Source: Nitrospirota bacterium (GTDB lineage Bacteria; Nitrospirota; Thermodesulfovibrionia; Thermodesulfovibrionales; UBA6898). From it: a stretch of DNA of 64,000 nucleotides. The DNA lies in NCBI GenBank assembly GCA_016235245.1, contig JACRLO010000020.1, positions 62,001-126,000 on the forward strand, in the 5' to 3' direction. Shown here one piece after another: positions 39,336 to 59,751 of the stretch. The notes under the pieces were generated by a model. That model was not told the DNA's origin and made no database searches. It saw nothing but the letters and a program-made list of their open reading frames with translations. How positions within the stretch are numbered: position 1 is the first letter of the stretch; every line of letters begins with the position of its first letter. Made by a program: the position numbers and the translations under genes.

Positions 39336-41570
39336 ATGTTCACCCAAAAACCTGATACGAAAACAAGGGTCAGTGACTTCATAGTGCAGCGGCTGCCAAT
39401 AGCGCTCCTTTTCCTGGGCATCGCCTCAATCGGACTCATTGCCGCAGTAGACCATATCAGCAGAAGCATGCGGCAGGCTTATCTCTATACCGACGTTGTC
39501 CATGAGATGGAGATCGAACTGAGCAAGGCCCATCTCGCACTGGAAGAGGACCTGCGGGGCATAGGAGGTCAGGACATCGCCCTGGTATGGCAGGGCATTG
39601 ACCGGACAGAGGCGATGGCCTCGGCAGTGCTTCACGGAGGGGTGTCACTCCACGGTCATACGATCAAACCCCTGCCTGATGGCAGCTTCAGGGATGATAT
39701 GGAAAACCTCCGATCCCTGGTAGTAAGGTTCAGAGAACTGGCACGGAATGTGTACAAAGACAAGTCCCTGTCTGAGATAAACAGCATGGACCGCGTATAC
39801 CATCAATTTCTTGTAAAGGCATTCATTCTTGACGAACAGCTTGAGGAACTTCAGGCCATAGATGAGCAGCGATCGAAAAAACTGATCATTCTCATTCTTA
39901 TTGCGTGGACCACAATTATCAGCGCTGCCGTAGCCGGGCTCTGGTACAGGGAACGGCTGAACAGGCGTATGCAGGCTGCAATCCTTAATGCGAAACACCA
40001 ATGGGAGCACACCTTTGACGTTATTCCCGACCTGATCGCGGTCATCGATAAAGACCACAGGATCGTCCGCGCCAACAGGGCAATGGCAGAGAAGGTGGGC
40101 CTTGAGCTGAAGGACATCCTCGGGAAAAAATGTTATGAGCTGTTCCATAAGACATCCGCCCCGATCGAATCCTGTCCCCATGCATTCCTGTTGCATGACA
40201 TGCAGGGACACGCAGCAGAGATCTACGAAAAGGAATTTGACGCATACTTTCTCGTAACCGTCTCACCCCTGATCGACGATTCCGGGACCTTTATCGGGTC
40301 TGTCCATGTTGCCAGGGACATCACCGCGCAGAAGAAGAATGCAGAGGAACTCCTGAACTACCGCAACAGACTTGAGAAACTGGTAGATCAGCGCACCAAT
40401 GAACTTGCAAAGACCAATGAGAAACTCAGCCGGGAGATTATCGGACATGAGCAGACCGCAGAAGCACTGCGCCAAAGTGAGGGCAGGTTCAGGCAGCTTT
40501 CTCAGCAATTCAACGTACTCCTTGATGAGATACCTGACAGCCTGATTGTCCTGTCGCCTGACCTGAAGGTCAAGTGGGCGAATAAAAGCGCACTTCAGGC
40601 GCTCATGCCTGCGGCAGATCAGGGCTCCGGACATTGCTATACGCTCTGGCATGATCAGGACAGACCCTGTGACGACTGTCCTGTGCTGAAAAGTATTCAG
40701 TCAGGGAATCCGGAAACAAGCCAGATAACAACGCCTGACGGCAGACTCTGGGCAGTGCGTTCCTATCCGATAAAAAACGAGAAGGGCGAAGTCGAGAGTG
40801 TCATGGAACTGAGCACCGATATCACCGAAAAAAAGAGTATCCAGGCAGAGCAGATGAGGGCAAACCATCTCGCATCGATCGGCGAGCTGGCAGCCGGCGT
40901 TGCCCGTGAGATCAATAACCCGATCAACGGCATCATCAACTATGCCCAGATTATTGTCAACAGCACTGACCCTGAGGCCAGACAATACGATATTGCAAAG
41001 AGGATTATCAAAGAGGGCGAGCGGATTTCGTTCATTGTGACAAGCCTGCTCTCCTTTGCCCGCGAGCGGAAAGAAGAGAAAATACCGGTATCGGTCCATC
41101 AGGTCCTCTCCGATGCCCTTGCCCTGACCGAGGTGCAGCTGAAGAAAAGCGGCATTGATCTGAGGCTGGATATAGGCGCGCAGGTCCCTCTCATAAAGGT
41201 CCATGCGCAGCAGATACAGCAGGTCTTCCTGAACATCATCAATAACGCCAGATACGCGCTCAGAGAAAAGTATCCCCAGACTGACCCTGACAAGATTATT
41301 CTCATAACAGCAGGGGAATCGGTAATCAACGGAGAACACCTTGTGCAGATCGTTTTCGAAGACCACGGCATTGGCATCCCCAGCCCTAATATCGATAAGG
41401 TGATGAACCCCTTTTATACGACAAAGCCGGTCGGCATCGGCACCGGACTCGGCCTGAGCATAAGCCACGGGATCATCGTTGACCATGGCGGCAGGTTGTC
41501 TGTCGAGAGCGAGGAAGGCGCCTATACCCGTATTATCGTATCCCTGCCGGCATATAAGGAACCCGTATGA
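39336..41570 (+). CDS. PAS histidine kinase with His-to-Arg change in the H-box
   Basis: This 744-residue protein has TM1 (about 20-38), a periplasmic helical domain (about 40-185), TM2 (about 187-207), two PAS domains (about 225-340 and 395-510) and HisKA/HATPase (about 515-740; FEDHGIGIP, GIGTGLGLSIS). The H-box reads ELAAGVAREINNP: residue 524 is Arg (CGT at 40905-40907) where kinases of this class have His (CAT/CAC), so autophosphorylation should fail unless another residue serves. The ATP-binding motifs are intact. Both PAS domains carry Cys/His patterns (CYELFHKTSAPIESCPH; CYTLWHDQDRPCDDCP) that could bind a cofactor or metal. It overlaps the sigma-54 regulator gene by four bases. Confidence 0.92.
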   Translation: MFTQKPDTKTRVSDFIVQRLPIALLFLGIASIGLIAAVDHISRSMRQAYLYTDVVHEMEIELSKAHLALEEDLRGIGGQDIALVWQGIDRTEAMASAVLHGGVSLHGHTIKPLPDGSFRDDMENLRSLVVRFRELARNVYKDKSLSEINSMDRVYHQFLVKAFILDEQLEELQAIDEQRSKKLIILILIAWTTIISAAVAGLWYRERLNRRMQAAILNAKHQWEHTFDVIPDLIAVIDKDHRIVRANRAMAEKVGLELKDILGKKCYELFHKTSAPIESCPHAFLLHDMQGHAAEIYEKEFDAYFLVTVSPLIDDSGTFIGSVHVARDITAQKKNAEELLNYRNRLEKLVDQRTNELAKTNEKLSREIIGHEQTAEALRQSEGRFRQLSQQFNVLLDEIPDSLIVLSPDLKVKWANKSALQALMPAADQGSGHCYTLWHDQDRPCDDCPVLKSIQSGNPETSQITTPDGRLWAVRSYPIKNEKGEVESVMELSTDITEKKSIQAEQMRANHLASIGELAAGVAREINNPINGIINYAQIIVNSTDPEARQYDIAKRIIKEGERISFIVTSLLSFARERKEEKIPVSVHQVLSDALALTEVQLKKSGIDLRLDIGAQVPLIKVHAQQIQQVFLNIINNARYALREKYPQTDPDKIILITAGESVINGEHLVQIVFEDHGIGIPSPNIDKVMNPFYTTKPVGIGTGLGLSISHGIIVDHGGRLSVESEEGAYTRIIVSLPAYKEPV

Positions 41571-43267
41571 AACAGAAAATATTGATCATTGACGACGAAG
41601 AGAGCCTGCGGTACACCTTTGCGGCGTTTCTGACAGACGAAGGATACGAGGTTGCTTCTGCAGAGACCTTCGATGCAGGCATTACGCACCTCGCGGAAGA
41701 AAGTGTTGATCTTATCTTTGCAGATATCCTTCTGGGGGACAAGACAGGGATCGACCTCCTGCGGGAGATCAGGACAAGAAACCTCACCTGCCCGGTCGTT
41801 ATGGTGACCGGTTCGCCGAATTTTGAGACCGCTTCCGAGGCGCTGCGCCTGGGCGCCTTCGACTATCTGGCAAAGCCCGTAACACAGAAGGCCCTGCTTC
41901 ATACTGCGGCCCTGGCGCTGAAGCAGAAAGCACTTCTTGACGAAAACGAGCGTATCAGGACCAACCTTGAGGCGGTATTCAGGAGCGTCAGGGACGGCAT
42001 TATCACGGTAGACTCTGGCATGCTGGTCATTGAGATGAATAACGCTGCCCAGGCCATCTGCGGCTATTCCCGCAACAGCGCGCAGGGGCAGCCGATAGCA
42101 TCTCTGCCGACCGGCTGCATGAAGAAATGCCTTGAAGCGCTGACAAAGACCATACAGGAAAAGAAGACGGTTGAACTCTTTCGCATCGACTGCCGCCACA
42201 AAGACAGGCCTGGACAGGTGGTCAACGTCGCGACCTCTCCCCTGATCGGGCCTCACCATGAATTTTCAGGCGCCGTCATGGTGCTCAGTGATGAAACCCG
42301 CATTGCAGACCTTGAATCCGACATGGGACAGCGCAAGCAGTTCCATGGCATGATCGGAAAGAGCGAGCAGATGCAGAATATCTACAGCCTTGTGGAGCAG
42401 GTTGCCGACTTCCCGACTACCGTGCTGATCAGGGGTGAAAGCGGCACAGGCAAGGAGCTTGTTGCCGAGGCGCTCCACTACCGGGGGACACGAAGCGCAA
42501 AGTCCCTGATCAGGGTCAACTGCGCATCGCTGCCTGAAAACCTTCTTGAGAGCGAACTCTTCGGCCATGTAAAGGGTGCATTTACCGGCGCAATCAGCGA
42601 CAGGGCAGGCAGGTTCGAGCTTGCGGACAAGGGAACGATCTTCCTCGACGAGATCGGAGACATGCCGCTGTCTGTCCAGGTGCGTCTGCTCAGGGTCCTC
42701 CAGGAAAGGGAGTTCGAACGGGTCGGCAGTGCAGCACCGATCAAGGTAGATGTCAGGGTAATCGCTGCTACCAACAATAATCTGCTCGAAAAAATACAGA
42801 AGGGTGAGTTCAGGGAAGATCTCTATTACCGCCTGAAGGTGGTCGAGATGGCCATCCCTCCGCTGAGGCAGAGAAAAGAGGACATCCCGCTTCTTACAGC
42901 ACATTTTATCCGGCGTTTCAGCAGGAAGTTCAGCAAAGACATACGGGATGTTTCTGCTGCAGTGATGGACCTGTTTATGCACCATAACTGGCCCGGCAAT
43001 ATCCGTGAACTTGAGCATGTCCTTGAGCATGCCTGTATCCTCTGCAGGGACGGCATCATAACAGCCGAATGTCTGCCAAAGGATTTTATCGGGCAGGGAC
43101 GGAATATTGAAAGCAGCCCTGATCAGGCCGGCGAAAAAGAAAAGATCATACAGGCGCTCAGGAAGGCCGGAGGAAACAAGGCAAAGGCCGCCCGCCTTTT
43201 AGGCATCAGCAGAAGAACCATGTACCGCAAAATTGAAGACCTCCAGATTCCTGACACTGAGCCCTAA
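41567..43267 (+). CDS. Sigma-54-dependent response regulator (REC-PAS-AAA-HTH)
   Basis: This 566-residue NtrC-type activator has a receiver with phospho-Asp D53 (LIFADILLGDKTG), a PAS domain (about 130-250), an AAA+ domain with Walker A GESGTGKE, the sigma-54 contact loop ELFGHVKGAFTGA, Walker B TIFLDEIGDM and an R-finger region, then a C-terminal Fis-type HTH (NKAKAARLLGISRRTMYRKI). It activates sigma-54 promoters, plausibly of the EPS operon upstream or the metal-redox operon downstream. No strong -24/-12 site was found in either promoter region. It is translationally coupled to the H-box-altered kinase. Confidence 0.95.
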   Translation: MKQKILIIDDEESLRYTFAAFLTDEGYEVASAETFDAGITHLAEESVDLIFADILLGDKTGIDLLREIRTRNLTCPVVMVTGSPNFETASEALRLGAFDYLAKPVTQKALLHTAALALKQKALLDENERIRTNLEAVFRSVRDGIITVDSGMLVIEMNNAAQAICGYSRNSAQGQPIASLPTGCMKKCLEALTKTIQEKKTVELFRIDCRHKDRPGQVVNVATSPLIGPHHEFSGAVMVLSDETRIADLESDMGQRKQFHGMIGKSEQMQNIYSLVEQVADFPTTVLIRGESGTGKELVAEALHYRGTRSAKSLIRVNCASLPENLLESELFGHVKGAFTGAISDRAGRFELADKGTIFLDEIGDMPLSVQVRLLRVLQEREFERVGSAAPIKVDVRVIAATNNNLLEKIQKGEFREDLYYRLKVVEMAIPPLRQRKEDIPLLTAHFIRRFSRKFSKDIRDVSAAVMDLFMHHNWPGNIRELEHVLEHACILCRDGIITAECLPKDFIGQGRNIESSPDQAGEKEKIIQALRKAGGNKAKAARLLGISRRTMYRKIEDLQIPDTEP

Positions 43268-43466: not shown

Positions 43467-43694
43467 ATGCAGAATAATAATGAATTAAAAGATGGCAATA
43501 AATCTGGTACGCAGGGCCTGACAAGGTTTATTGCCATGGTGAGATGCCCTTATCTTTTGCATCCCTTTTCTGACTGTTACTGTTCGCAGATGAACAGCCA
43601 GATGACCGAAAAAGCAGTTAAATTTTGCGGTGGTGACTTCAAGGATTGTGATGTCTATCAAAATCATCTCACACAGGAGATTCAGCCTGCCTGA
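43467..43694 (+). CDS. Small Cys-rich protein of unknown function
   Basis: This 75-residue soluble protein has five cysteines in the order C-x10-C-x-C-x15-C-x5-C (RCPYLLHPF, DCYCSQM, KFCGGDFKDC). The spacing suggests a zinc or Fe-S site. The ATG at 43467 has no good ribosome site; MVRCPYLLHPF at 43536 is an alternative start. It precedes the FKBP gene by 40 bases and is probably the first gene of the metal-redox operon. I recognise the general pattern of small Cys-cluster proteins but no named family. Confidence 0.65.
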   Translation: MQNNNELKDGNKSGTQGLTRFIAMVRCPYLLHPFSDCYCSQMNSQMTEKAVKFCGGDFKDCDVYQNHLTQEIQPA

Positions 43695-43734
43695 TGCATG
43701 GGCCGGGCTCTTTAAAAAAGAGGAAATAAGGACT

Positions 43735-44403
43735 ATGAAACGTATTGTAATCTTGTTGTCCCTGATCGCAGCGCTGACCGTGCCGGCGTTTGGAGCAGAC
43801 GCTCCGATGACTGAGGAGCAGAAAACACTCTATGCCATTGGATTGAGTGTGGCAAAATCGCTTGTTCCCTTCAGCCTCACCCCTGCTGAACTCGAATTTG
43901 TGAAACAGGGTCTGACCGATGCTATTACGGGCAGCAAACCGGGCATCGAGCTGAGCGCCTACAATACCAGGATACAGGAAATGGCGCGTGCCCGCCGCAA
44001 GGTCCAGGGCGAAAAACTGGAACCGGAGAATAAGGCCGCCCTGGAGAAGGTAGCGGCTGAAAAAGGCGCCGTAAAGACCGCCTCCGGCCTGGTCTATCTG
44101 TCACTCAGGGAAGGGACCGGAACAGGTCCGATGGCGGCTGACACAGTCAGGGCCAACTATCGCGGCACGCTCCCTGACGGCAGGGAGTTCGACAGTTCCG
44201 CCAAACGCGGCAAGCCCCTTGAGTTCAAGCTGGAGAGCGTCATAAAGTGCTGGTCAGAAGGCCTGCAGATGATGAAGCCGGGCGGCAAGGCAATAATAGC
44301 CTGCCCTGCAGCACTCGCCTATGGCGACATCGGCGCAGGAGACCTGATTCTCCCCGGCGCCACATTAACGTTCGAAATCGAGCTGCTTGAGGTGAAGAAA
44401 TAG
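43735..44403 (+). CDS. Exported FKBP-type peptidyl-prolyl isomerase
   Basis: This 222-residue protein starts at 43735 after a GAGGAAATAAGG ribosome region; the frame's upstream extension overlaps the small Cys protein. A signal peptide (MKRIVILLSLIAALTVPAFGA), an N-terminal dimerisation-type helical region (FKBP_N, about 25-110), and an FKBP domain (about 125-222; VRANYRGTLPDGREFDSS, GLQMMKPGGKA, LPGATLTFEIELLEV) follow. These periplasmic isomerases help fold outer-membrane or secreted proteins; here the likely client is the multicopper oxidase of the same operon. The GTG start of the SCO gene overlaps its stop. Confidence 0.94.
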   Translation: MKRIVILLSLIAALTVPAFGADAPMTEEQKTLYAIGLSVAKSLVPFSLTPAELEFVKQGLTDAITGSKPGIELSAYNTRIQEMARARRKVQGEKLEPENKAALEKVAAEKGAVKTASGLVYLSLREGTGTGPMAADTVRANYRGTLPDGREFDSSAKRGKPLEFKLESVIKCWSEGLQMMKPGGKAIIACPAALAYGDIGAGDLILPGATLTFEIELLEVKK

Positions 44404-45041
44404 TGATAGCTGCGAATCAAACATTGGGTGATCAGCTCTCAGCTTTCAGCTGTCAGTTGTCAGCTTTCTCACGCATTACTCATTACGCATTACTCATTAC
44501 GGCAGTTCTCTTCCTGCTTCTAACGCCTGCTGCCTCTGCCGATACCAGGACCTATCAGCGCTCTGTCGAAAAATATGCGGTACCTGATGTCACCCTGATC
44601 AACCAGGACGGCAACAAGGTCCGCTTCAAAAACTTCCTCTCAGAAGACAAACCGGTTGTCGTTGACTTTATTTTCGGCACCTGCACCACCATCTGCCCGG
44701 TACTGTCGGCCGGCTATGCCAGCCTGCAGCAGAAACTGGGAGGGGGGTCGGAAAAAGTCCATCTTGTCTCCATATCGATCGATCCTGAAAATGACAAGCC
44801 CGCTGTGCTTAAGGACTACCTGAAGCGCTATCGCTCAAAGCCGGGATGGGACTTTCTGACCGGGTCGCGCAAAGATATCGAAAGGGTCATGAAGGCCTTC
44901 AATGCCAATATCCCGGATAAGATGTCACACTATGCGCTCACCTTTATCCGCATGCCGAAGGAAGAGAGCTGGATCAGGATCAACGGCATGATGAGCACCT
45001 CGGAGTTCCTTGCCGAGAGCCAGAAGGCAGGCATACGATGA
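44403..45041 (+). CDS. SCO1/SenC-family copper chaperone-like protein
   Basis: This 212-residue protein has a thioredoxin-like SCO domain (about 55-210). The copper/redox cysteines are FGTCTTICPVL (CxxxC) and the distal His is in DKMSHYALTFI. SCO proteins deliver copper or reduce cysteines during assembly of cupredoxin sites. With a multicopper oxidase downstream, that is its probable client. Start is the GTG at 44403 overlapping the FKBP stop. The N-terminal 45 residues are odd: repeated QLSAFSCQLSAFS and THYALLIT-like sequence produced by tandem DNA repeats (44431-44498) precede or replace a normal signal peptide; hydrophobic residues about 29-43 still form an export signal. Confidence 0.9.
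   Translation: MIAANQTLGDQLSAFSCQLSAFSRITHYALLITAVLFLLLTPAASADTRTYQRSVEKYAVPDVTLINQDGNKVRFKNFLSEDKPVVVDFIFGTCTTICPVLSAGYASLQQKLGGGSEKVHLVSISIDPENDKPAVLKDYLKRYRSKPGWDFLTGSRKDIERVMKAFNANIPDKMSHYALTFIRMPKEESWIRINGMMSTSEFLAESQKAGIR
44431..44498 (+). repeat. Tandem and interspersed short repeats inside a signal-peptide region
   Basis: TCAGCTTTCAGCTGTCAGT-like repeats (44432-44468) are followed by two exact copies of the 14-mer ACGCATTACTCATT (44471-44484, 44485-44498). They lie in frame in the SCO gene's signal region. Related TCAGC-rich sequence recurs at 45047-45080 and 46802-46845, at the starts of the next two genes. Confidence 0.8.
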
Positions 45042-46792
45042 TGACGACCGCTGTCAGCTCCAGGCTATCAGCCCGTAATTTTTGGCGTCTGACTGTTTTA
45101 CTGTTTACTCACTGCTCAGTAATCATCACGGCAGTTATCGTGCTGCCGTTTACTGCACAGGCGGCTGATACGAAGAACTCACTCCTTGCCGGTATGGATC
45201 AGGCAGAGATCCTGAGGCTCGGCCAGCGCATATACCGTGAGGGCATCCTGCCTGACGGCAAGCCCCTTCCCGGCTTTGTGAGCGGTGATGTGCCTGTGGA
45301 CGGGACAGCATTTACCTGCGTCAGCTGCCATCTCAGAAGCGGTCTCGGCTCGTTTGAAGGGAACGTCGTAACACCGCCGACCAACGGCCGCATTCTCTAT
45401 CAGCCCCGCGAACCGTTTATCAAGGGATCGGAGTTCGTGCCCTACATACATAATTATGCTGTTTATCTGCCGGTCCGTCCTGCCTATACCTATGAAACGC
45501 TCGCTGCGCTGATCAGCACCGGCTACGACCCTACCGGCCGCTCTATGGTAGGCGTGATGCCGAGATACGACCTGAGCAGCCGCGATATGGCGATCCTGAT
45601 TTCCTATCTTGAGACGCTCTCGGACAAGCCGTCACCGGGAGTCGCCAAAGAAGAGATCAAATTTGCAGCCGTAATTGCCGAGGGCGCTGATCCAACCGCG
45701 GTGAGGTCCATGCTTACCCCTATCGAGTTTGGCATTGAAAGAAAAAACAGCCTTGCCCTTGCGGCAAAAAAGGATTCCCGGGTCTCCCGCATGTCCTATA
45801 ACATGTCAGGGAATCTGACCTATATGCAGTTTACCCTTTCACGCTGGATATTGAAGGGGCCTTCAACCACTTGGCGGAAGCAGCTTGAGGACTACTATAA
45901 GGCAGAGCCGGTCTTTGCCCTCCTTGGCGGCATCACCAATGGCGACTGGGAGCCTGTCCACCGATTCTGCGAGGATAACGGGATTCCCGATCTCTTTCCC
46001 ATTGTCGATTATCCGGTCATTTCGCAAAAAGACTGGTATACCCTCTACCCCTCGCGCGGTATTCAGCAGGAGGGAGAATCTGCAGCCGGGTACATCCACG
46101 GCATGTATGAGCTCTTCAAGGGCCGTCCGATCGTCCAGATCATCAGGGCTGACCACAGGGCAGAGGCCCTTGCTGCAGGATTCCGCAGCACCTGGCAGCA
46201 GACAGGCCATGCTCCGGCAAAAGAGATCATGGTCGCAAAGGGAGAGAAACTCACGGCTGAAAAACTTCAGCAGATCGTCTCGGAGGAGAAGCCTGCCGTC
46301 CTGCTCATATGGGATGATGAATCTTTTCTGCCGGCCCTCAGCAGCCTGGCCGGAAAGCCGGACAGTCCCGGACTGGTCATCGCATCGGCGCCGTATCTCG
46401 GCAAGGCCCTCTGGAGCGTCCCGGAGGAACTGAGGACAATGCTCTATATGACCTATCCCTACCGGCTGCCGCAGGACGATGCCCGCTATGACAAGACGGT
46501 AAAAAGAATATTGGCCGGCAAGGCGCTCGAGATATTTGACCCGGTCGTTATCAGGCAGTCTTATGTCACCAACGAGGTCCTGGGCAAGGCGTTGCTGGAT
46601 ATGCGCGGGGAATACTACCGTGACTTTCTGCTCGATACGATCGGCATGATGGCTGACCAGTATTTCCCGCTCTATGAGCGTGTCAGCTTCGGCCCCGGTC
46701 AGCGCTATGCCTCAAAAGGCTGCTTTATTGTACAGCTCGGCAAGGGCAAGGTCCCGCAGCTTGAACGCCGCAGTGAATGGGTGGCGCAATGA
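45038..46792 (+). CDS. Cytochrome c domain fused to type 1 periplasmic binding protein
   Basis: This 584-residue exported protein has a signal segment (about 17-43). Next is a cytochrome c domain (about 50-200) with heme site CVSCH (C94, C97, H98) and a likely axial Met in VGVMPRYDLSS. A type 1 periplasmic-binding fold (about 205-570), as in branched-chain amino-acid binding proteins and ligand-sensing domains, follows: FALLGGITNGDWEPVHRFCEDNGIPDLFP, AAGYIHGMYELFKGRPIVQIIR, AVLLIWDDESFLPAL. Seen: both domains complete in one frame. The fusion suggests ligand-gated electron transfer or a heme-bearing sensor/receptor. It overlaps the SCO gene by four bases and the next gene by four, so it belongs to the multicopper oxidase operon. 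Confidence 0.88.
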   Translation: MMTTAVSSRLSARNFWRLTVLLFTHCSVIITAVIVLPFTAQAADTKNSLLAGMDQAEILRLGQRIYREGILPDGKPLPGFVSGDVPVDGTAFTCVSCHLRSGLGSFEGNVVTPPTNGRILYQPREPFIKGSEFVPYIHNYAVYLPVRPAYTYETLAALISTGYDPTGRSMVGVMPRYDLSSRDMAILISYLETLSDKPSPGVAKEEIKFAAVIAEGADPTAVRSMLTPIEFGIERKNSLALAAKKDSRVSRMSYNMSGNLTYMQFTLSRWILKGPSTTWRKQLEDYYKAEPVFALLGGITNGDWEPVHRFCEDNGIPDLFPIVDYPVISQKDWYTLYPSRGIQQEGESAAGYIHGMYELFKGRPIVQIIRADHRAEALAAGFRSTWQQTGHAPAKEIMVAKGEKLTAEKLQQIVSEEKPAVLLIWDDESFLPALSSLAGKPDSPGLVIASAPYLGKALWSVPEELRTMLYMTYPYRLPQDDARYDKTVKRILAGKALEIFDPVVIRQSYVTNEVLGKALLDMRGEYYRDFLLDTIGMMADQYFPLYERVSFGPGQRYASKGCFIVQLGKGKVPQLERRSEWVAQ

Positions 46793-47199
46793 GCTCCCCG
46801 TTGTCAGCCATCAGCGCTCAGCTATCGGCTATCAGTCTGCTCATGGCCATAACCCTCCTGCTGGTGCTGACAGCGGCTGAAGCGGCACAGGGGCAGCAGA
46901 CGCCTGAGAAGGTCTATGTCGTAAACGATTACCGATACATACCGACCAGCGCCTCGGATGACAAGGACACAGGGCTTTCCCTCTGCGGGACCCGCTGCAA
47001 TGCCCTTACCACTGACTATCTGAATATCACTGAAGTGGGAGGCTGGCAGCTGATGAAGGGTGTGGTGAACAGGGAACTGACCTTGGAACTCAACAGCCCC
47101 TTTCTCAAAGGGCAGTGCATATGCATAGGCGATGAATATGAGGTGAGGATCGATGACCGCTATGGTGAAGATAGAAGGCGGCCGCCGAGGCAGAAATGA
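46789..47199 (+). CDS. Small exported protein, unknown
   Basis: This 136-residue protein starts at the ATG at 46789 that overlaps the upstream stop. The first 35 residues form a signal peptide containing a repeat-derived stretch (SPLSAISAQLSAISLLMAI). The mature part has four cysteines (LCGTRC and QCICIG), enough for two disulfides or a metal site, a plausible compact beta-domain (GWQLMKGVVNRELTLELNSPF), and a basic tail (RYGEDRRRPPRQK). No family is recognised. Its place between the cytochrome fusion and the multicopper oxidase suggests an accessory role. Confidence 0.75.
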   Translation: MSSPLSAISAQLSAISLLMAITLLLVLTAAEAAQGQQTPEKVYVVNDYRYIPTSASDDKDTGLSLCGTRCNALTTDYLNITEVGGWQLMKGVVNRELTLELNSPFLKGQCICIGDEYEVRIDDRYGEDRRRPPRQK

Positions 47200-47253
47200 T
47201 CCGGGGCCGGAAGAATGAAAATATCGCAGTATTACACAAGGAGGTGTAAGGTT

Positions 47254-47517
47254 ATGAAAAAACTGTTGGCAGTAGTATCAGGAATGTTGCTGGTAGGTTT
47301 CCTGCTCGCAACAGTAATGGCAGGCAGCACTATACCGAATCAGGGCAGCGTTCAGCAGGGCTCAGCTGAGCAGACTGCTGTTTCTCAGACCCAGATAGAT
47401 ACGGTCAGTAAACGTGAGGAAGCAAGAAAACAGCGCGACAAGAAGTTGAAAATACGGGCCAAAAATGTCCAGAACGGCACAAATACAGGCAACCAGCTTC
47501 AAGTGCCTTCGAAGTAG
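47254..47517 (+). CDS. Small secreted Gln/Lys-rich protein
   Basis: This 87-residue protein is preceded by AAGGAGGTGTAAGG and starts MKKLLAVVSGMLLVGFLLATVMAG, a clean signal peptide. The mature 63 residues are hydrophilic, without Cys, with a Gln/Ser-rich first half and a basic second half (KREEARKQRDKKLKIRAKN) likely helical. It is not recognised. It lies 54 bases after the preceding gene and 95 bases before the multicopper oxidase start. It might be a periplasmic adaptor or a component of the secreted complex; no direct evidence. Confidence 0.7.
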   Translation: MKKLLAVVSGMLLVGFLLATVMAGSTIPNQGSVQQGSAEQTAVSQTQIDTVSKREEARKQRDKKLKIRAKNVQNGTNTGNQLQVPSK

Positions 47518-47612
47518 TATGTGCAACAAGGCGTACATGATTGGCACCACGTTAGCAGACGCAGACAACGAATCATATTTGGAATTTGAGAACCAGTATA
47601 ATGGAGGGAGTT

Positions 47613-50600
47613 ATGCGTAATCGATCATTCAATTCAATTTTAGTTGCAGTTCTGTCTGTGCTGATCCTTCTTTCGGATGGGCTCGCAGAGGCCTATCTCA
47701 GTACAGACTACAGTTATTATACGGCCCCAGGGCAATTTGTAATCGGCCCGGGCGTTCTTCCGGACTATCTGACAACCCCCAACTGGGCCTTTTCACCGCC
47801 CCTTACGAAATTTATTGACCCTCTGCCGAATCTCTGTGATCCGAAAACAGCTGTTGACCACTGTGTTGGCGGCAAAAGGATCCCGATTGCCGTGCCGGAT
47901 AAGGTCACATATCCCGGCTCTGACTATTATGAGATCGAACTGCAACAGTACACAGAAGTAATGCATTCTGAACTGCCTGCTACTACATTGCGCGGCTATG
48001 TTCAGACAAACCCAGGCACAAATACTACGAGCTGCAATGTCCCTGTTGCATTACCCCTTGTCAGCGGAGACTGCACCGTAGCTGACAACACTATAACCCC
48101 TGGAGGTATTCACTTCCTCGGCCCGATCATCATTGCAACAAAGGGCCGGCCAGTGCGGGTGCTCTTCAAAAACAAAATCAATCCCGGTGGGGGAGATGGC
48201 GACCTCTTCCTCCCGGTAGATGACACTGTCATGGGCGCAGGCCCTTACAAAATCAATTTCGATCCTGCTGCCAAATACGATCCCCTGGTAACGCCAGTCC
48301 CTCCAACGTTTTCCCCATCAAAAGAGGGATTTTTTAGCACGAATCGCGCTACCCTGCACCTCCATGGCGGCAGAAGCCCCTGGATCAGTGACGGAACTCC
48401 GCACCAGTGGATTGCCCCTGCTACGGACCAGGACCCGAATTACCCTCAGGGCGTAAGTGTCGAAAACGTTCCTGACATGCCGGCTCCGGGTGTCGGCGAG
48501 CAGACCTTTTTTTGGACCAACCAGCAGAGCTCCCGCATGATGTTCTACCATGATCATGCCTGGGGCATCACCCGCCTTAATGTGTACGCAGGTGAGGCAG
48601 CAGGATACCTGATAACAGACGATGTTGAGCAGGGCCTCGTCGGTAGTGGAATCATCCCCTCGGATATGATCCCGCTCGTGATTATGGACAAGACCTTTGT
48701 TAATGCGGATCCGTTAAGCCCTACCTATATCGGGTTAACTGACCCCACCTGGAACTGGGGACCTGGGACAGCTGCCCCGGCTGATCAGGGTGTCGTTACG
48801 TTTATTAATGTTACCAATGGCGGATCCGGTTATACGGCCGTACCCACCGTCGATATTACAGAGCCTGGAAAAACCGGCGCAACTGCCAAGGCAGCCTTAT
48901 CAACAGTGGTTTCGGCTGTTGCAATAGTAGACCCTGTGGGTACCCCTGCGAACAAGGGCTTAGGTTATGTCTCACCTATAGTCATCATTGACCCTCCACT
49001 AAGCGGCATCGGCGCAACTGCGGATGCCACAATAGATGGCACAGGAGCTATTACCGGCATCGTAGTAACAAATGGAGGCTCAGGGTATGACCCGGGTACC
49101 CCGCCCCTGGTCACCATTTTTGATCTCAATAATGATAACTATACTCCAGCTGTTGCCACGGCCACAGTCGTATCCACCGTTTCCTCCATATCGGTTTTAT
49201 CCGGAGGCTCAGGGTACGTCAATCCAACGGTTACTATTACGCCTGCAGGCGGCGACACCACCGGAGGTGGTGCCCAGGCATCGGCAACAGTAACTGACAT
49301 CAAGCCATTACAAACCGGCGATCTCTGGTGGCCTCATGTGTATATGCCTGCGCAGAACCCTTATGACGTAAGCGGTATCGCACCTATGGGCAGATGGGCC
49401 TACGGCCCCTATTTCTATCCTGCCACCAATAATCCGTTTCAGCCGATACCGAACCCGTATTACAGCCCTCTCTGCGACCCTGCAGATGACGCCACTCCGG
49501 GAAGCTTTGGCGGTTTCTGTCAGGCGCCTGAAATTCCGTCTACGCCTAACCCCTCATGGGGAGCAGAGGCGTTCATGGATACTCCGCTCGTAAACGGCAC
49601 TGCATACCCGTATGTTGACGTTGACCCAAAGGCATATCGTCTGCGCATTCTGAATGCTGCGCATGACCGGTTCATGGCCCTCTCGCTCTTTACGGCAGTC
49701 GATAAGACCGGCTATACCAATCCGACACCAGCACCGTTTGACTTTACCGGCGCGGCAACCGATCTTACTGAAGTCGCCATGATCGATGCCTCTGCTTCAG
49801 GCCTTGCTGCTGATGGGACCTGCCCCGGTACCTGGCCTGCAGACGGTCGCGCAGGTGGTGTGCCGGCCTGCAGCACCAAAGGCCCTGACTGGATCATGAT
49901 CGGCAACGAAGGCGGCTTCCTGCCGATGCCGGTGGTGATCCCTCCGCAACCGATAACATGGAACATGAACCCCAGTATGTTCAACGTGGGCAACGTCAAT
50001 GGCGGCTCGCTGATCCTCGGCCCTGCTGAGAGGGCAGACGTCATCGTCGACTTCTCTGCTTACAGAGGCAAGACACTGATCTTATACAATGACGGCTCAG
50101 CTCCATGGCCTGCGCTTAATCCTCAGTACGACTTTTATACCGGCAACCCTGACGGAACTGCATCAGGCAGCGCTCCCTCAACCGCTCCCGGCAAAGGCCC
50201 CAACACAAGGACCATCATGCAGTTTAGGGTCGCTGATATAGCTCCTGCTGCAACCTATGATACTGCGCCTTTGATCACTGCCTTTACCTCGACCTATGTC
50301 CCTGGACCTACGCCAAGCGGCACAAAGGGCGTATTCCAGCAAGCGCAGGACCCGATCATCGTAGCACAGGGTAATATGAACCCCACAGGTGACCCGGTTT
50401 TGTATGAGGCATTTTTGGGTTCACAGGACTATAGTGCCTATAATAAGGCCTATAACAAGACCTTCCCGGCCACGTATCCAAACTGGGGAATAGTCCCAAA
50501 GATCAATGATAAGATCATCAGTTTCAAGACCCTTACCGATTCTAATGGTACCGTGGCCCCAACAACGCAGAGCATCGCAATGAAGAACAAGTCAATCCAT

Positions 50601-52457
50601 GATGAAATGGGCGCGACTTTTGATGACTATGGCCGCATGCGCGCTGCCCTCGGTCTCGAAAAATCCGGTGGAGGCGGACTTCAGGTGAATTTCGTTGTGC
50701 AGACTTACAGCTCTCCGGCCACAGAGAACCTGACAGCCAACGGAGTTCAGGTCTGGAAGATCACCCATAACGGTGTGGATACGCATCCGATCCATTTCCA
50801 TCTCTTTGACGTACAGGTCTTAAACAGAATCGGCTGGGACGGCTTTGTCCGCCTGCCTGACCCGACCGAGCTGGGATGGAAAGAAACGGTCAGGATCAGC
50901 CCGCTTGAAGACACCATCGTTGCCATTAAGCCGATAGCGCCGACTCTTCCGTTTGGAGTGCCATCAAGCTTTCGGCCACTGAACCCGGCAACGGAAATTG
51001 GCTCCACGACAGAGATAACACAGATCGACCCGGTAACCGGCAATGCTTATGCAACGCCACTTACCAACTCCTGGGCTAATTTCAAGTGGGAATATGTCTG
51101 GCATTGCCATATCCTCAGTCATGAAGAAAACGACATGATGAGGGCAATGTCATTGCATGTAGTCGAGGCAGTACCCGCAGCACCGACGTGGGGATCGGCT
51201 GTGATAGTAGCAGGCCCTCCTTATCATGTTGATCTTACTTGGAATGACAAATCAGCTACCGAATATCTGTTCCGTTTAGATCGTTCAGTGGACGGTGGAG
51301 CATTTACCAAACTCGTAGATGTGCCGGCCAATACTACTACCTATTCGGATTTGACTGCAACTAATCTCCACATATACAGATACACGGTAACAGCTGTGGG
51401 TGCTCAAGGCTCAGCAACGTCAGGAATAATCACGGCATCACCTCCACCGCCTGGGGCGTCAACACTCACATCGCCTGTAGCGGGTGCTACTATTGCTACC
51501 ACAACGCCATCCTATACATGGACAGTGGGAGCATCAGAGGGGGCTACCCAATATCGACTCTATATTGCACGGCAGGGTGCAGGAGTTATTCCAGGTGGTG
51601 ATCAGACATTTAATGCAGCAGCTATCTGCACAGGAACAACAGCTGTGGATACCTGCACAGTGAACACACCACCAATGCCGACTTTGACGAATAATACGAC
51701 ATATACCTGGAATGTTCAGGGGAGTAATGTGGGGGGTGCTGGCCTGTGGGCTGGAGCGAGATTATTCACCGTAACAACAGCGACAGTTCCTGGTGTTCCG
51801 ACACTCACGTCACCTGTAGCGGGGGCAGTTATCGCTTCTACTACCCCGTCTTATACCTGGACAGTGGGAGCATCTGCAGGGGCAACCCAGTATCGGATCT
51901 ATCTTACACAGTCGGGAGGGGGCGTCATTCCTGGTGGTGACCAGACGTTTAACGCTGCTGCCATCTGCACAGGAACAACGGCAGGGGATACCTGCACAGT
52001 GAACACACCGCCAATGCCAACATTGACGAATAATACGACTTACAGTTGGAACGTGCGAGGTATTAATGCAGCTGGTAATGGTGCATGGGCAGGCTCCAGA
52101 TCGTTCACCGTAACAACAGCGACTGTGCCTGGGGTGCCTACTCCCACACCGCCTATTGGTGGGATAATCGTAGGCTCCACGACGCCGTCCTATACATGGA
52201 CAGTGGGAGCATCTGCAGGGGCAACCCAGTATCGGATCTATCTTACGCGGCAGGGGGCTGGCGGAGTGCCAGGCGGCGATCGGACGTTTAATGCTGCAGC
52301 CATCTGCACAGGAACAACAGCAGTGGATACCTGCACAGTGAATACACCGCCAATGCCGACCTTGACAGGCAATACCACTTATTTCTGGAATCTTCGTGGC
52401 ATAAATGCAGCAGGTTCAGGCGCTTGGGCGGGCGCTCAACAGTTTAAAACACCATAA
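47613..52457 (+). CDS. Giant secreted multicopper oxidase with Ig/Fn3-like repeats
   Basis: This 1614-residue protein starts at 47613 after GGAGGG. A signal peptide (about 8-28) leads into cupredoxin domains with all four copper motifs: HLHGG (H249, H251), YHDHAWG (H313, H315), HPIHFHLF (H1058, H1061, H1063) and WHCHILSHEENDM (H1164, C1165, H1166, H1170, M1175). Types 1, 2 and 3 copper sites are therefore complete. Residues about 395-570 are an insertion with three GGSGY-centred repeats. After the oxidase come one Fn3-like domain (about 1190-1280) and three 113-residue near-identical units (1284-1614). Family knowledge: large bacterial multicopper oxidases of this sort include Mn(II)/Fe(II) oxidases and Geobacter OmpB, a secreted protein needed for Fe(III)-oxide reduction. 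The substrate here is unknown. Confidence 0.94.
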   Translation: MRNRSFNSILVAVLSVLILLSDGLAEAYLSTDYSYYTAPGQFVIGPGVLPDYLTTPNWAFSPPLTKFIDPLPNLCDPKTAVDHCVGGKRIPIAVPDKVTYPGSDYYEIELQQYTEVMHSELPATTLRGYVQTNPGTNTTSCNVPVALPLVSGDCTVADNTITPGGIHFLGPIIIATKGRPVRVLFKNKINPGGGDGDLFLPVDDTVMGAGPYKINFDPAAKYDPLVTPVPPTFSPSKEGFFSTNRATLHLHGGRSPWISDGTPHQWIAPATDQDPNYPQGVSVENVPDMPAPGVGEQTFFWTNQQSSRMMFYHDHAWGITRLNVYAGEAAGYLITDDVEQGLVGSGIIPSDMIPLVIMDKTFVNADPLSPTYIGLTDPTWNWGPGTAAPADQGVVTFINVTNGGSGYTAVPTVDITEPGKTGATAKAALSTVVSAVAIVDPVGTPANKGLGYVSPIVIIDPPLSGIGATADATIDGTGAITGIVVTNGGSGYDPGTPPLVTIFDLNNDNYTPAVATATVVSTVSSISVLSGGSGYVNPTVTITPAGGDTTGGGAQASATVTDIKPLQTGDLWWPHVYMPAQNPYDVSGIAPMGRWAYGPYFYPATNNPFQPIPNPYYSPLCDPADDATPGSFGGFCQAPEIPSTPNPSWGAEAFMDTPLVNGTAYPYVDVDPKAYRLRILNAAHDRFMALSLFTAVDKTGYTNPTPAPFDFTGAATDLTEVAMIDASASGLAADGTCPGTWPADGRAGGVPACSTKGPDWIMIGNEGGFLPMPVVIPPQPITWNMNPSMFNVGNVNGGSLILGPAERADVIVDFSAYRGKTLILYNDGSAPWPALNPQYDFYTGNPDGTASGSAPSTAPGKGPNTRTIMQFRVADIAPAATYDTAPLITAFTSTYVPGPTPSGTKGVFQQAQDPIIVAQGNMNPTGDPVLYEAFLGSQDYSAYNKAYNKTFPATYPNWGIVPKINDKIISFKTLTDSNGTVAPTTQSIAMKNKSIHDEMGATFDDYGRMRAALGLEKSGGGGLQVNFVVQTYSSPATENLTANGVQVWKITHNGVDTHPIHFHLFDVQVLNRIGWDGFVRLPDPTELGWKETVRISPLEDTIVAIKPIAPTLPFGVPSSFRPLNPATEIGSTTEITQIDPVTGNAYATPLTNSWANFKWEYVWHCHILSHEENDMMRAMSLHVVEAVPAAPTWGSAVIVAGPPYHVDLTWNDKSATEYLFRLDRSVDGGAFTKLVDVPANTTTYSDLTATNLHIYRYTVTAVGAQGSATSGIITASPPPPGASTLTSPVAGATIATTTPSYTWTVGASEGATQYRLYIARQGAGVIPGGDQTFNAAAICTGTTAVDTCTVNTPPMPTLTNNTTYTWNVQGSNVGGAGLWAGARLFTVTTATVPGVPTLTSPVAGAVIASTTPSYTWTVGASAGATQYRIYLTQSGGGVIPGGDQTFNAAAICTGTTAGDTCTVNTPPMPTLTNNTTYSWNVRGINAAGNGAWAGSRSFTVTTATVPGVPTPTPPIGGIIVGSTTPSYTWTVGASAGATQYRIYLTRQGAGGVPGGDRTFNAAAICTGTTAVDTCTVNTPPMPTLTGNTTYFWNLRGINAAGSGAWAGAQQFKTP
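51462..52457 (+). repeat. Three tandem 339-bp coding repeats at the oxidase C-terminus
   Basis: Units at 51462-51800, 51801-52139 and 52140-52457 (the last 21 bases shorter) encode 113-residue blocks starting TLTSPVAGA or equivalent and sharing PSYTWTVGAS, ATQYR and AAICTGTTA. DNA identity is high, so the array probably expands and contracts by recombination. Confidence 0.9.
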
Positions 52458-57423: not shown

Positions 57424-59751
57424 TCATCCTATTTTGATTGCCTTTCCCATTCTCAGCGATTCGAGCACCTTAAATGTGGCCAGTGTAGCAGCATAGATCT
57501 CTTCAAAAGGAATGGGAGCTGCTGTCCCTTTTCTAATCGAGTCAATAAAGGTCCTTACCATCTCCTTCTGTCCCTTATCCTGGCTGAGGAGGTTTTTGGT
57601 GTATGGTTTCCCGGAGCCGAAGACCTGGAGCTCTTTGAAATCTTTCAGTATAACTGTCGTGCCAGCCCGGTAAATCTCGATATATTCCTTGAACAAAGAC
57701 TTTGGACCGTTTGCAAAATACGCAACAGTCCCTATCGATCCATTCTCAAAGGAGATATTGATATTCAACGTGTCCTGTTTATTTCCGGGATCAGGCAATG
57801 CAGTTGCAAAGACAGTGACCGGCAGAGAGCCGTTCATATAGATCAGGAAATCAATAAAGTGGCATACCTCGCCGACGATCCGGCCGCCGCCAATCTTCAT
57901 ATCCTGTATCCATGAGTCGGCAGGGATATGTCCGGCATTTATACGGTATATCATGGACATGGGACCTATGCCTGTCTTTTCTTTCATAACTTGCGTCAAG
58001 GGAGAGAATCGGCGATTAAAACCAACCAACAGCAAAGGGAATGAAGAATGAGGAATGAAGAATGAGGAATTTGATTTATCAATTCCTGATAATGATGTTC
58101 CTTCGTCATCCTGCTTTCCGCATTTTACATTAGCTTCTGCAATCGTATTTCTGCATTCTGCAATCTCTTCTAATTCGGATTCCCTTAGGCATAAAGGTTT
58201 TTCAACGAAAATGTGTTTGCCGGCAGACAGCGCTTTCTTTACGTAATCAGCGTGGCTGTCATGACGTGTGGCGATAAATACAGTATTGATCCCGGCGTTG
58301 CCGAGAATGTCAGTTTCAGATGAGGCGCAGAATTCAAAGCCGTATTTGTCCGCAACAGTTCTTGAACTGGTACCAGATGAGGTCATAACCCCTTTCAGCA
58401 GGATATCCTTTCCCTTCGGGATATTGGGGAGAAGATTACCCGTGGCATAACTGCCTGCACCGATAAAGGCAATGTTGACTGTTGACTGTTGAAAGTTGAA
58501 GGTTGAGGGGTTAATGGCATTCTGACCCCTGAATTCTGAATTCTGAATTCTGAAAATTGGTTTGTTCTCAATTTTCTTATCAACTTCATATTCGATCAGG
58601 ATACCGAGGAATGGCTCGCCTTTCCCCATGATCAGGTTGTACGCAGAGAGTGCATCATCGAGCTTGAATATATGTGTTGTCAGATAATCCATATCCAGTT
58701 TCCCGCTTTGGGCAAGTGCCTGAAAAGCCTTCATGTTCCTGTTTTCGGTCCATCTCACATAGCCTGCAGGATAGTCGATCCCTTTTTCCTCGTAATTCAG
58801 ATCGTATCGCCCTGGTCCGTATGAGCAGGACATTTTGAGTTCAAGCTCTTTCTTGTAGTAGTGCGGATCCCGGTCAAAACCCGTTGCCACGTCACCGACA
58901 ATGACCACCTTTCCTTTTTTCTTCGCTAAACGGCCCGCAAGATTTATAGGGTCAGTGCTGTCGGTCGCTGCGGTGATGATCGCGGCATCTGCTCCAATGC
59001 CATCTGTAAATTCATCTATCTTCTCGGCAAGCCCGGCATCTTTGCGCTCAAAACAGAGATCTGTGCAATGCTTTTGCGCAAGCTCGGCCATGAGGGGGTC
59101 AATGTCTATCCCGATAACTCTTATGCCGGAGGCTCTTAGCATGAGGCAGGTCAGATGCCCTATAAGGCCGAGGCCGATAACAACGCAGGTTTCCCCGAGC
59201 TTCAGGTCTGCCTGGCGGATGCCCTGAAGAGCGATCGCCCCCAGTGTGTTATATGCAGCCCGTTTCAGAACCGTTTGCACAAGATCGGAACCATTCTGTA
59301 TTTTGACTTCCGAGTTCTGAATTGCCGAGAGTTTAACGCACAGGTTTCGCGGAACAGCTACCACCTCCGCATGACTTGCATATCCTCCCCCGGCGCAGGC
59401 AACAAGATCGCCGGCAGCAAACCCCTGAACTTCCGATCCGACTTCAATAACCACTCCGGCAGAACTGTACCCCAGCGGCGAGTACGCATCAAGCTTCTTC
59501 ATCACAGCCCGGTATGCCTGAACCGGCCCCTGCTGCATCACAACGTCGATCACCTGCTTCACCTGCTGTGGCCGTTCCTTTGCCTTGCCGATAAGACTCT
59601 TCCGTGCAGCACTGACCGTGCTTCCCTCTGTGCCTGCGCTGATCAGGGAAAAATGGTTCATTACAAGGAGCATGCCTTTTCCCACCACAGGGATTGGTAC
59701 CTCCAGCACCTGCATCTTTCCATCTTTAAGTTTTTGGGTTAATTGTTTCAT
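57424..59751 (-). CDS. Two-domain dehydrogenase: Zn-ADH-like plus Gfo/Idh/MocA
   Basis: This 775-residue protein has an N-terminal medium-chain dehydrogenase-like half (about 1-395; GYSSAGVVIEVGSEVQGFAAGDLVACAGGGYASHAE, VIGLGLIGHLTCLMLRASG) and a C-terminal Gfo/Idh/MocA half (about 425-775; IAFIGAGSYATGNLLPNI, IATRHDSHADYVKKALSAGKHIFVEKPLC, GGGRIVGEVCHFIDF). Such bi-domain oxidoreductases recur in surface-glycan clusters. Three segments look inserted in frame from simple DNA repeats: AIQNSEVKIQNG (59299-59334), PIFRIQNSEFRGQ...STFNFQQSTVN (58474-58556) and KSNSSFFIPHSSFP (58035-58075). Its first 54 codons are duplicated at 60457-60618 and its first 23 codons again at 61595-61663. It may still work, as the insertions sit in linkers or loops, but this is uncertain. 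Confidence 0.85.
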   Translation of the reverse strand: MKQLTQKLKDGKMQVLEVPIPVVGKGMLLVMNHFSLISAGTEGSTVSAARKSLIGKAKERPQQVKQVIDVVMQQGPVQAYRAVMKKLDAYSPLGYSSAGVVIEVGSEVQGFAAGDLVACAGGGYASHAEVVAVPRNLCVKLSAIQNSEVKIQNGSDLVQTVLKRAAYNTLGAIALQGIRQADLKLGETCVVIGLGLIGHLTCLMLRASGIRVIGIDIDPLMAELAQKHCTDLCFERKDAGLAEKIDEFTDGIGADAAIITAATDSTDPINLAGRLAKKKGKVVIVGDVATGFDRDPHYYKKELELKMSCSYGPGRYDLNYEEKGIDYPAGYVRWTENRNMKAFQALAQSGKLDMDYLTTHIFKLDDALSAYNLIMGKGEPFLGILIEYEVDKKIENKPIFRIQNSEFRGQNAINPSTFNFQQSTVNIAFIGAGSYATGNLLPNIPKGKDILLKGVMTSSGTSSRTVADKYGFEFCASSETDILGNAGINTVFIATRHDSHADYVKKALSAGKHIFVEKPLCLRESELEEIAECRNTIAEANVKCGKQDDEGTSLSGIDKSNSSFFIPHSSFPLLLVGFNRRFSPLTQVMKEKTGIGPMSMIYRINAGHIPADSWIQDMKIGGGRIVGEVCHFIDFLIYMNGSLPVTVFATALPDPGNKQDTLNINISFENGSIGTVAYFANGPKSLFKEYIEIYRAGTTVILKDFKELQVFGSGKPYTKNLLSQDKGQKEMVRTFIDSIRKGTAAPIPFEEIYAATLATFKVLESLRMGKAIKIG
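58039..58066 (+). repeat. Two tandem 14-mers inside the two-domain dehydrogenase gene
   Basis: GAATGAAGAATGAG occurs twice in a row (58039-58052, 58053-58066). On the coding strand it gives SSFFIPHSSF-type peptide in a loop of the MocA half. The unit length equals that of the 14-mer tandem in the SCO gene at 44471. Confidence 0.85.
58474..58551 (+). repeat. Simple repeats at the inter-domain linker
   Basis: GTTGACT/GTTGAAA-type heptamer runs (58474-58509) and three exact GAATTCT heptamers (58531-58551) fill the linker between the two enzyme domains while keeping the frame open. Confidence 0.85.
59590..59751 (-). repeat. Direct repeat copy 1 (162 bp, start of the two-domain gene)
   Basis: This copy matches 60457-60618 at 160 of 162 bases by direct reading. 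It encodes the first 54 codons of the full-length gene. The two differences (around 59700 and 59707) match the third, partial copy at 61595-61663 in copy 2 but not here. The repeats flank the DUF4926/DUF6883 cassette. Confidence 0.95.

Follow-up and report, generated by a model that had tools for sequence, protein, structure and literature searches.

A candidate MofC-like electron carrier, combining cytochrome c and type 1 periplasmic-binding domains, encoded beside a multicopper oxidase in a Nitrospirota-type genome

Proteins that join a cytochrome c domain to a periplasmic-binding domain are already known as MofC-like proteins. PMC5566968 describes MofC of Leptothrix discophora, GSU1397 of Geobacter sulfurreducens and homologues from iron oxidisers, whose genes adjoin those for SCO1/SenC, a MofB-type isomerase and an extracellular multicopper oxidase; the functions given there are putative. 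The copper enzymes found beside them are thought to oxidise manganese or iron. In the Mn-oxidising Rubrivivax A210, a putative five-gene mof operon is described as comprising mofA, mofB, mofC, a copper metallochaperone and an exported unknown (PMC8218464). The cluster Slit_1812-1818 of Sideroxydans ES-1, which encodes cupredoxin proteins, SCO1 and a predicted cytochrome, is reported to be more highly expressed on magnetite (PMC12016527), and from the accounts in the two sources we infer that this is the ES-1 cluster with the mofC-like gene of PMC5566968.

A second setting is the mnxG operon of Pseudomonas putida GB-1. Gene 641547574, listed in Table 4 of PMC11409713 as a cytochrome c domain substrate-binding protein, lies there beside SCO1/SenC genes and a Mn-oxidising multicopper oxidase. 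The phylum Nitrospirota includes manganese lithotrophs, and for 'Candidatus Manganitrophaceae' it is stated that its multicopper oxidases could support Mn(II) lithotrophy only with such a carrier in the periplasm (PMC9040806).

We analysed a 64,000-nucleotide stretch of DNA (the window) from a Nitrospirota-type genome. It contains the gene set of the mof/ompB clusters, namely an FKBP isomerase, SCO1, a cytochrome protein, a small cysteine-containing protein and a multicopper oxidase (Table 1). The cytochrome protein (45038–46792) shares with the MofC-like proteins a cytochrome c domain, a periplasmic-binding domain and, as judged by eye, export; it has the same annotated architecture as GB-1 gene 641547574. 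The link to MofA, OmpB and MofC rests on cluster content and domain make-up, and, compared with MofC and GSU1397, the window cluster belongs to a Nitrospirota-type genome. In contrast to the window, the GB-1 operon, as tabulated, has an oxidase of the MnxG class and a beta-propeller gene. Because such proteins have already been described beside copper enzymes, and both the domain fusion and the gene setting are in print, we count it as a further MofC-like protein and not as a novel type.

Table 1. Coordinates of the cytochrome protein, its parts and neighbouring genes in the window
Feature	Position	Strand	Basis
PAS histidine kinase, possible cluster regulator	39336..41570	+	profile match; kept upstream in L031, L032
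NtrC-type sigma-54 response regulator, possible cluster regulator	41567..43267	+	profile match; kept upstream in L031, L032
FKBP-type prolyl isomerase (MofB-like role)	43630..44403	+	PF00254 E 6.2e-25; true start may be internal
SCO1/SenC family copper chaperone	44403..45041	+	Pfam PF02630 E 6.9e-21
Cytochrome c – type 1 periplasmic-binding protein (MofC-like), 584 aa	45038..46792	+	frame, relatives, Pfam, fold matches
Probable Sec signal peptide, residues 1–42, cleavage after AQA	45038..45163	+	translation judged by eye
CVSCH haem c attachment site, residues 94–98	45317..45331	+	C, C, H invariant, 35/35 rows
Met174-Pro175, probable distal haem ligand	45557..45562	+	invariant, 35/35 rows
Type 1 periplasmic-binding (LivJ-like) fold, residues 203–584	45644..46789	+	fold and Pfam matches
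Small exported protein, four invariant Cys (LCGTRCNA ... GxCxC)	46777..47199	+	kept in L029, L031, L032, L046
Small exported charged protein	47215..47517	+	relatives in L031, L032, L046
Multicopper oxidase, 1623 aa, C-terminal Ig-like repeats	47586..52457	+	profile matches, copper motifs

Architecture of the cytochrome–binding protein

The gene runs from an ATG at 45038 to a stop codon ending at 46792, with zero internal stops. The sequence-only reading had described it as one exported protein in which an intact CVSCH haem domain precedes a type 1 periplasmic binding fold, and the frame, the Pfam matches of family members and the fold matches bear this out. When the cytochrome parts of 35 sequences were aligned, Cys94, Cys97 and His98 proved invariant, as did Met174 and Pro175. 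These residues are the ones expected of a monohaem, His/Met-ligated cytochrome c of class I, in which, by analogy with other members of the class, Met174 is the probable distal haem ligand. The domain shares with class I monohaem cytochromes c the CXXCH and Met-Pro motifs, the helix order and the fold matches; unlike them, it is enlarged (∼160 residues) and has a long variable insert before an RPAYT motif.

The 584-residue protein alone gave no Pfam match at E 0.01, its one hit being Cytochrom_C at E 0.075, under the cut-off for that profile. A domain-architecture search with 17 aligned members recovered both halves: Peripla_BP_6 in 12 (best 1.4e-9) and Cytochrom_C in six (best 8e-6). Sequence searches of the PDB, with the protein and with its alignment, returned weak matches only, the best being cytochromes.

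The full-length model had a mean pLDDT of 75; it is free of haem, and the haem loop (residues 87–104) was modelled poorly, at pLDDT <50. Residues 203–584 resembled LivJ/LBP and other type 1 binding proteins (Foldseek best E 2e-11; VIA Z 23–27 and rmsd 3.7–5.8 Å against the best PDB chains). When modelled alone, the cytochrome domain reached a mean pLDDT of 86, and its best PDB matches were almost all c-type cytochrome domains, with Z up to 9.3 and an rmsd of 2.5 Å over 96 residues, which supports a cytochrome c fold for the CVSCH region. Foldseek gave no match to this model at E ≤ 0.001, the best being cytochrome c551 at 0.037. The binding part thus has the fold of the LivJ/LBP-type proteins (Peripla_BP_6); unlike them, the protein carries a haem domain in front, has no cognate permease nearby and, in the core family, does not keep the LivJ-type first binding loop, which reads 'LSGP.A..G' in the distant relatives inspected.

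A frameshift joining two genes, which would have accounted for the fusion, was excluded because 16 full-length relatives have both domains in one frame, at identities of 83% down to 38%. The exception is genome G004, where the gene appears as two overlapping frames (L046 1483–3185), either through a frameshift or through an assembly error.

Relatives and their gene neighbourhoods

Matches to the protein were found in 21 of the 230 genomes of the class. Seventeen of these have most of the gene (in G001 a contig end truncates it, and in G004 it is in two frames); G020, G022 and G113 have apparent remnants with stops or short frames, and G207 matches in the cytochrome part only. The G020 and G022 remnants lie ∼4 kb from a multicopper-oxidase frame of 1500 residues, and short C-terminal family remnants with a conserved GQRY.SKG motif, some with stops, occur at L017, L018 and L071. 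A wider sample of the phylum gave matches in 48 of 395 genomes, many over the cytochrome alone.

Beyond the phylum sample, a contig binned as Chromatiales carries the same cluster, at 62%, and weaker relatives (29–33% over 89% of the protein) were found on eight Paraburkholderia and Cupriavidus replicons, among them homologues in Cupriavidus metallidurans CH34 and Paraburkholderia (L081, L082). The four Paraburkholderia neighbours scanned held no recognised multicopper oxidase. There the homologue adjoins a LolA-like protein and a giant Ig/cadherin-type protein; the Cupriavidus setting looks similar by eye, with a SCO1-like frame 3′ of the gene.

We then compared 25 core loci, counting the window and leaving out L001, L028 and L030, which duplicate the window, L031 and L046. 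SCO1 was a same-strand neighbour at 21 of the 24 testable loci, L037 being left out on account of a contig end. It lies downstream in L043 and upstream at the other SCO1-bearing loci, ∼0.5 kb away in L046; no SCO1 was found nearby in L033, L038 or L103. A large multicopper oxidase was present in the fetched stretch at eight of the 25 (the window, L029, L032, L033, L036, L038, L046 and L104), and two loci have oxidases of other types, with two Cu-oxidase_3 genes in L045 and an MnxG-like gene in L044. At the other 15, several with stretches that stop at contig ends, no multicopper oxidase was seen; these include L103, whose 31% oxidase fragment was left uncounted.

Among distant relatives in the same phylum, 12 of the 16 loci with long frames in the phylum sample were fetched; all 12 have a large multicopper oxidase nearby, and nine have SCO1 (not L107, L109 or L113). 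Distant relatives adjoin large MnxG-like oxidases; the MnxG-type arrangement within Nitrospirota is that of L044 and L106, together with distant relatives, and not that of the window. Against the NCBIfam MnxG profile NF041487, the large oxidases of L106 and L044 scored E 3e-260 and 0 (867 and 1671 bits). The curated cut-off of that profile is 3100 bits, which was passed in 0 of 34 genomes; we therefore call these oxidases only MnxG-like. Longer relatives at L107 (8292–11036), L109 and L113, with frames of 913–967 residues, have ∼400 extra N-terminal residues before the cytochrome and directly adjoin a large multicopper oxidase.

The oxidase of the window has all four copper motifs (HLHG, HDH, HPIHFH and HCHILSH) and is the only Cu-oxidase_2 match in its genome at a threshold of E 0.001. 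In this protein an Ig-like Rha78A_N domain scored over the cut-off and fn3 under it (E 0.006). The EXXE Fe(III)-binding motif named for OmpB occurs nowhere in the protein, and for this reason we have not filed it as OmpB itself. A tblastn search of plasmids with the oxidase core returned 72 records, none covering 80% of the core.

Relatives of the FKBP isomerase occupy the same place in L031 and L032 (75% and 78%) and in L104 (67%). The small protein downstream of the cytochrome gene gave no match in Pfam, NCBIfam or PHROGs; its four cysteines are invariant across the sequences from five loci, always with the cytochrome cluster, and the LCGTRCNA and GxCxC motifs are a possible metal site.

Across the class, a Cu-oxidase_2 gene was present in 16 of the 17 genomes with a full-length cytochrome gene compared with 54 of the 213 others (Fisher p 2e-8), and within the genome's own family in 14 of 14 with the gene compared with eight of 13 without it (p 0.016), an association that at genome level is inflated or confounded by relatedness. 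Cu-oxidase_2 frames of at least 1450 residues occur in at least 10 genomes; among the matches listed, 10 of 10 have the cytochrome gene, two of them as remnants.

Proposed role and rival explanations

The sequence supplies a probable export signal (judged by eye), one predicted site for haem c with His/Met ligation, a binding domain of the type 1 fold and a place in the gene cluster. With moderate confidence, we propose a MofC-like role for the protein: it would be an accessory that carries electrons for a secreted multicopper-oxidase system of metal redox chemistry, and it perhaps also serves copper loading of the oxidase. We favour an electron carrier because of the conservation of the haem ligands and domains, the published mof/ompB gene set, the SCO1 and oxidase neighbours and the genome co-occurrence; counted against it are the 15 of 25 core loci where no oxidase was seen, the missing EXXE motif and the Paraburkholderia neighbours. 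In such a system the FKBP isomerase would help the oxidase to fold and SCO1 would help to load its copper. The oxidase would have a metal as its substrate, with Mn(II) and Fe(II) as the leading candidates, and would work at the outer membrane or beyond it. Electrons would pass, in one direction or the other, between the haem and either the type 1 copper of the oxidase or the next carrier in line. The binding domain may dock the cytochrome or hold a small ligand, for example a metal chelate.

A broader proposal, offered only as speculation and rather unlikely at present, is that one cytochrome–binding-protein family is the partner of both MofA/OmpB-like and MnxG-like oxidases in Nitrospirota, its haem carrying the electrons of metal oxidation into the periplasm. 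If this were true, such oxidases could supply electrons to respiration, and not all of the electrons would go to oxygen. In the open-licence literature we did not find it stated that one family is common to mof-type and mnxG-type clusters, so that this sharing between MofA-like and MnxG-like oxidases within a single phylum may be new. The repeated occurrence of SCO1 and the two large-oxidase settings make the family a concrete candidate for an electron or copper route to or from these enzymes.

The constancy of SCO1 could also be read as pointing to biogenesis rather than turnover, in which the cytochrome would keep SCO1, or copper itself, in the reduced state and the binding domain would hold copper or a copper chelate for insertion into the oxidase. 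No other neighbour, the oxidase included, is as constant as SCO1 (21 of 24), and in the window the SCO1 stop codon overlaps the start of the cytochrome gene by 4 bp. However, L033, L038 and L103 have no SCO1 nearby, and L033 and L038 still have a large multicopper oxidase. SCO1 is also widespread in the class where the cytochrome is missing: 156 of 230 genomes have it, compared with 21 that match the cytochrome. We consider a copper-insertion partner the main rival, possible but doubtful.

The sequence-only reading had offered two roles. Its electron carrier fits a neighbourhood of SCO1 and a multicopper oxidase; its redox-gated receptor found little support. On the receptor reading, the protein would be a co-receptor for the histidine kinase and NtrC-type regulator, which would then control the cluster. 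This pair (39336–43267) lies directly upstream, as it does in L031 and L032, and Mn oxidation by P. putida GB-1 is reported to need two sensor kinases and a response regulator (PMC11409713). However, L031 and L032, the only loci at which the pair is kept in place, belong to the same genus; among the other neighbourhoods compared, kinase or NtrC matches were seen only in L038, L042 and L044, where they either were weak or lay several kb from the gene. The window's sigma-54-like sites were also at the level of chance (11 found, 10.6 expected). A co-receptor role is thus quite improbable.

An ordinary ABC-importer solute-binding protein that happens to bear haem is very improbable: the fold and the distant family matches are those of branched-chain amino-acid binding proteins, but the canonical first loop is not kept in the core family and the genome's four Liv-type permease matches lie on contigs C12 and C30, with zero on the window's contig C20, and we rejected it on context, there being no permease genes near 45038–46792.

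Tandem repeats in the window

A search of the whole window with Rfam returned one tRNA and nothing else. At the 3′ end of the oxidase gene (51449–52366), a 339-bp repeat (113 residues) is present in 2.7 copies within the stretch of Ig-like domains. Heptanucleotide tandem repeats occur at 44426–44505, 58021–58085 and 58461–58555, the first of them within the part of the SCO1 gene that encodes the signal peptide. A period-7 signal is also found in L031 and L032, at the 5′ ends of SCO1 and neighbouring genes, as though the 7-bp repeat were rewriting signal peptides.
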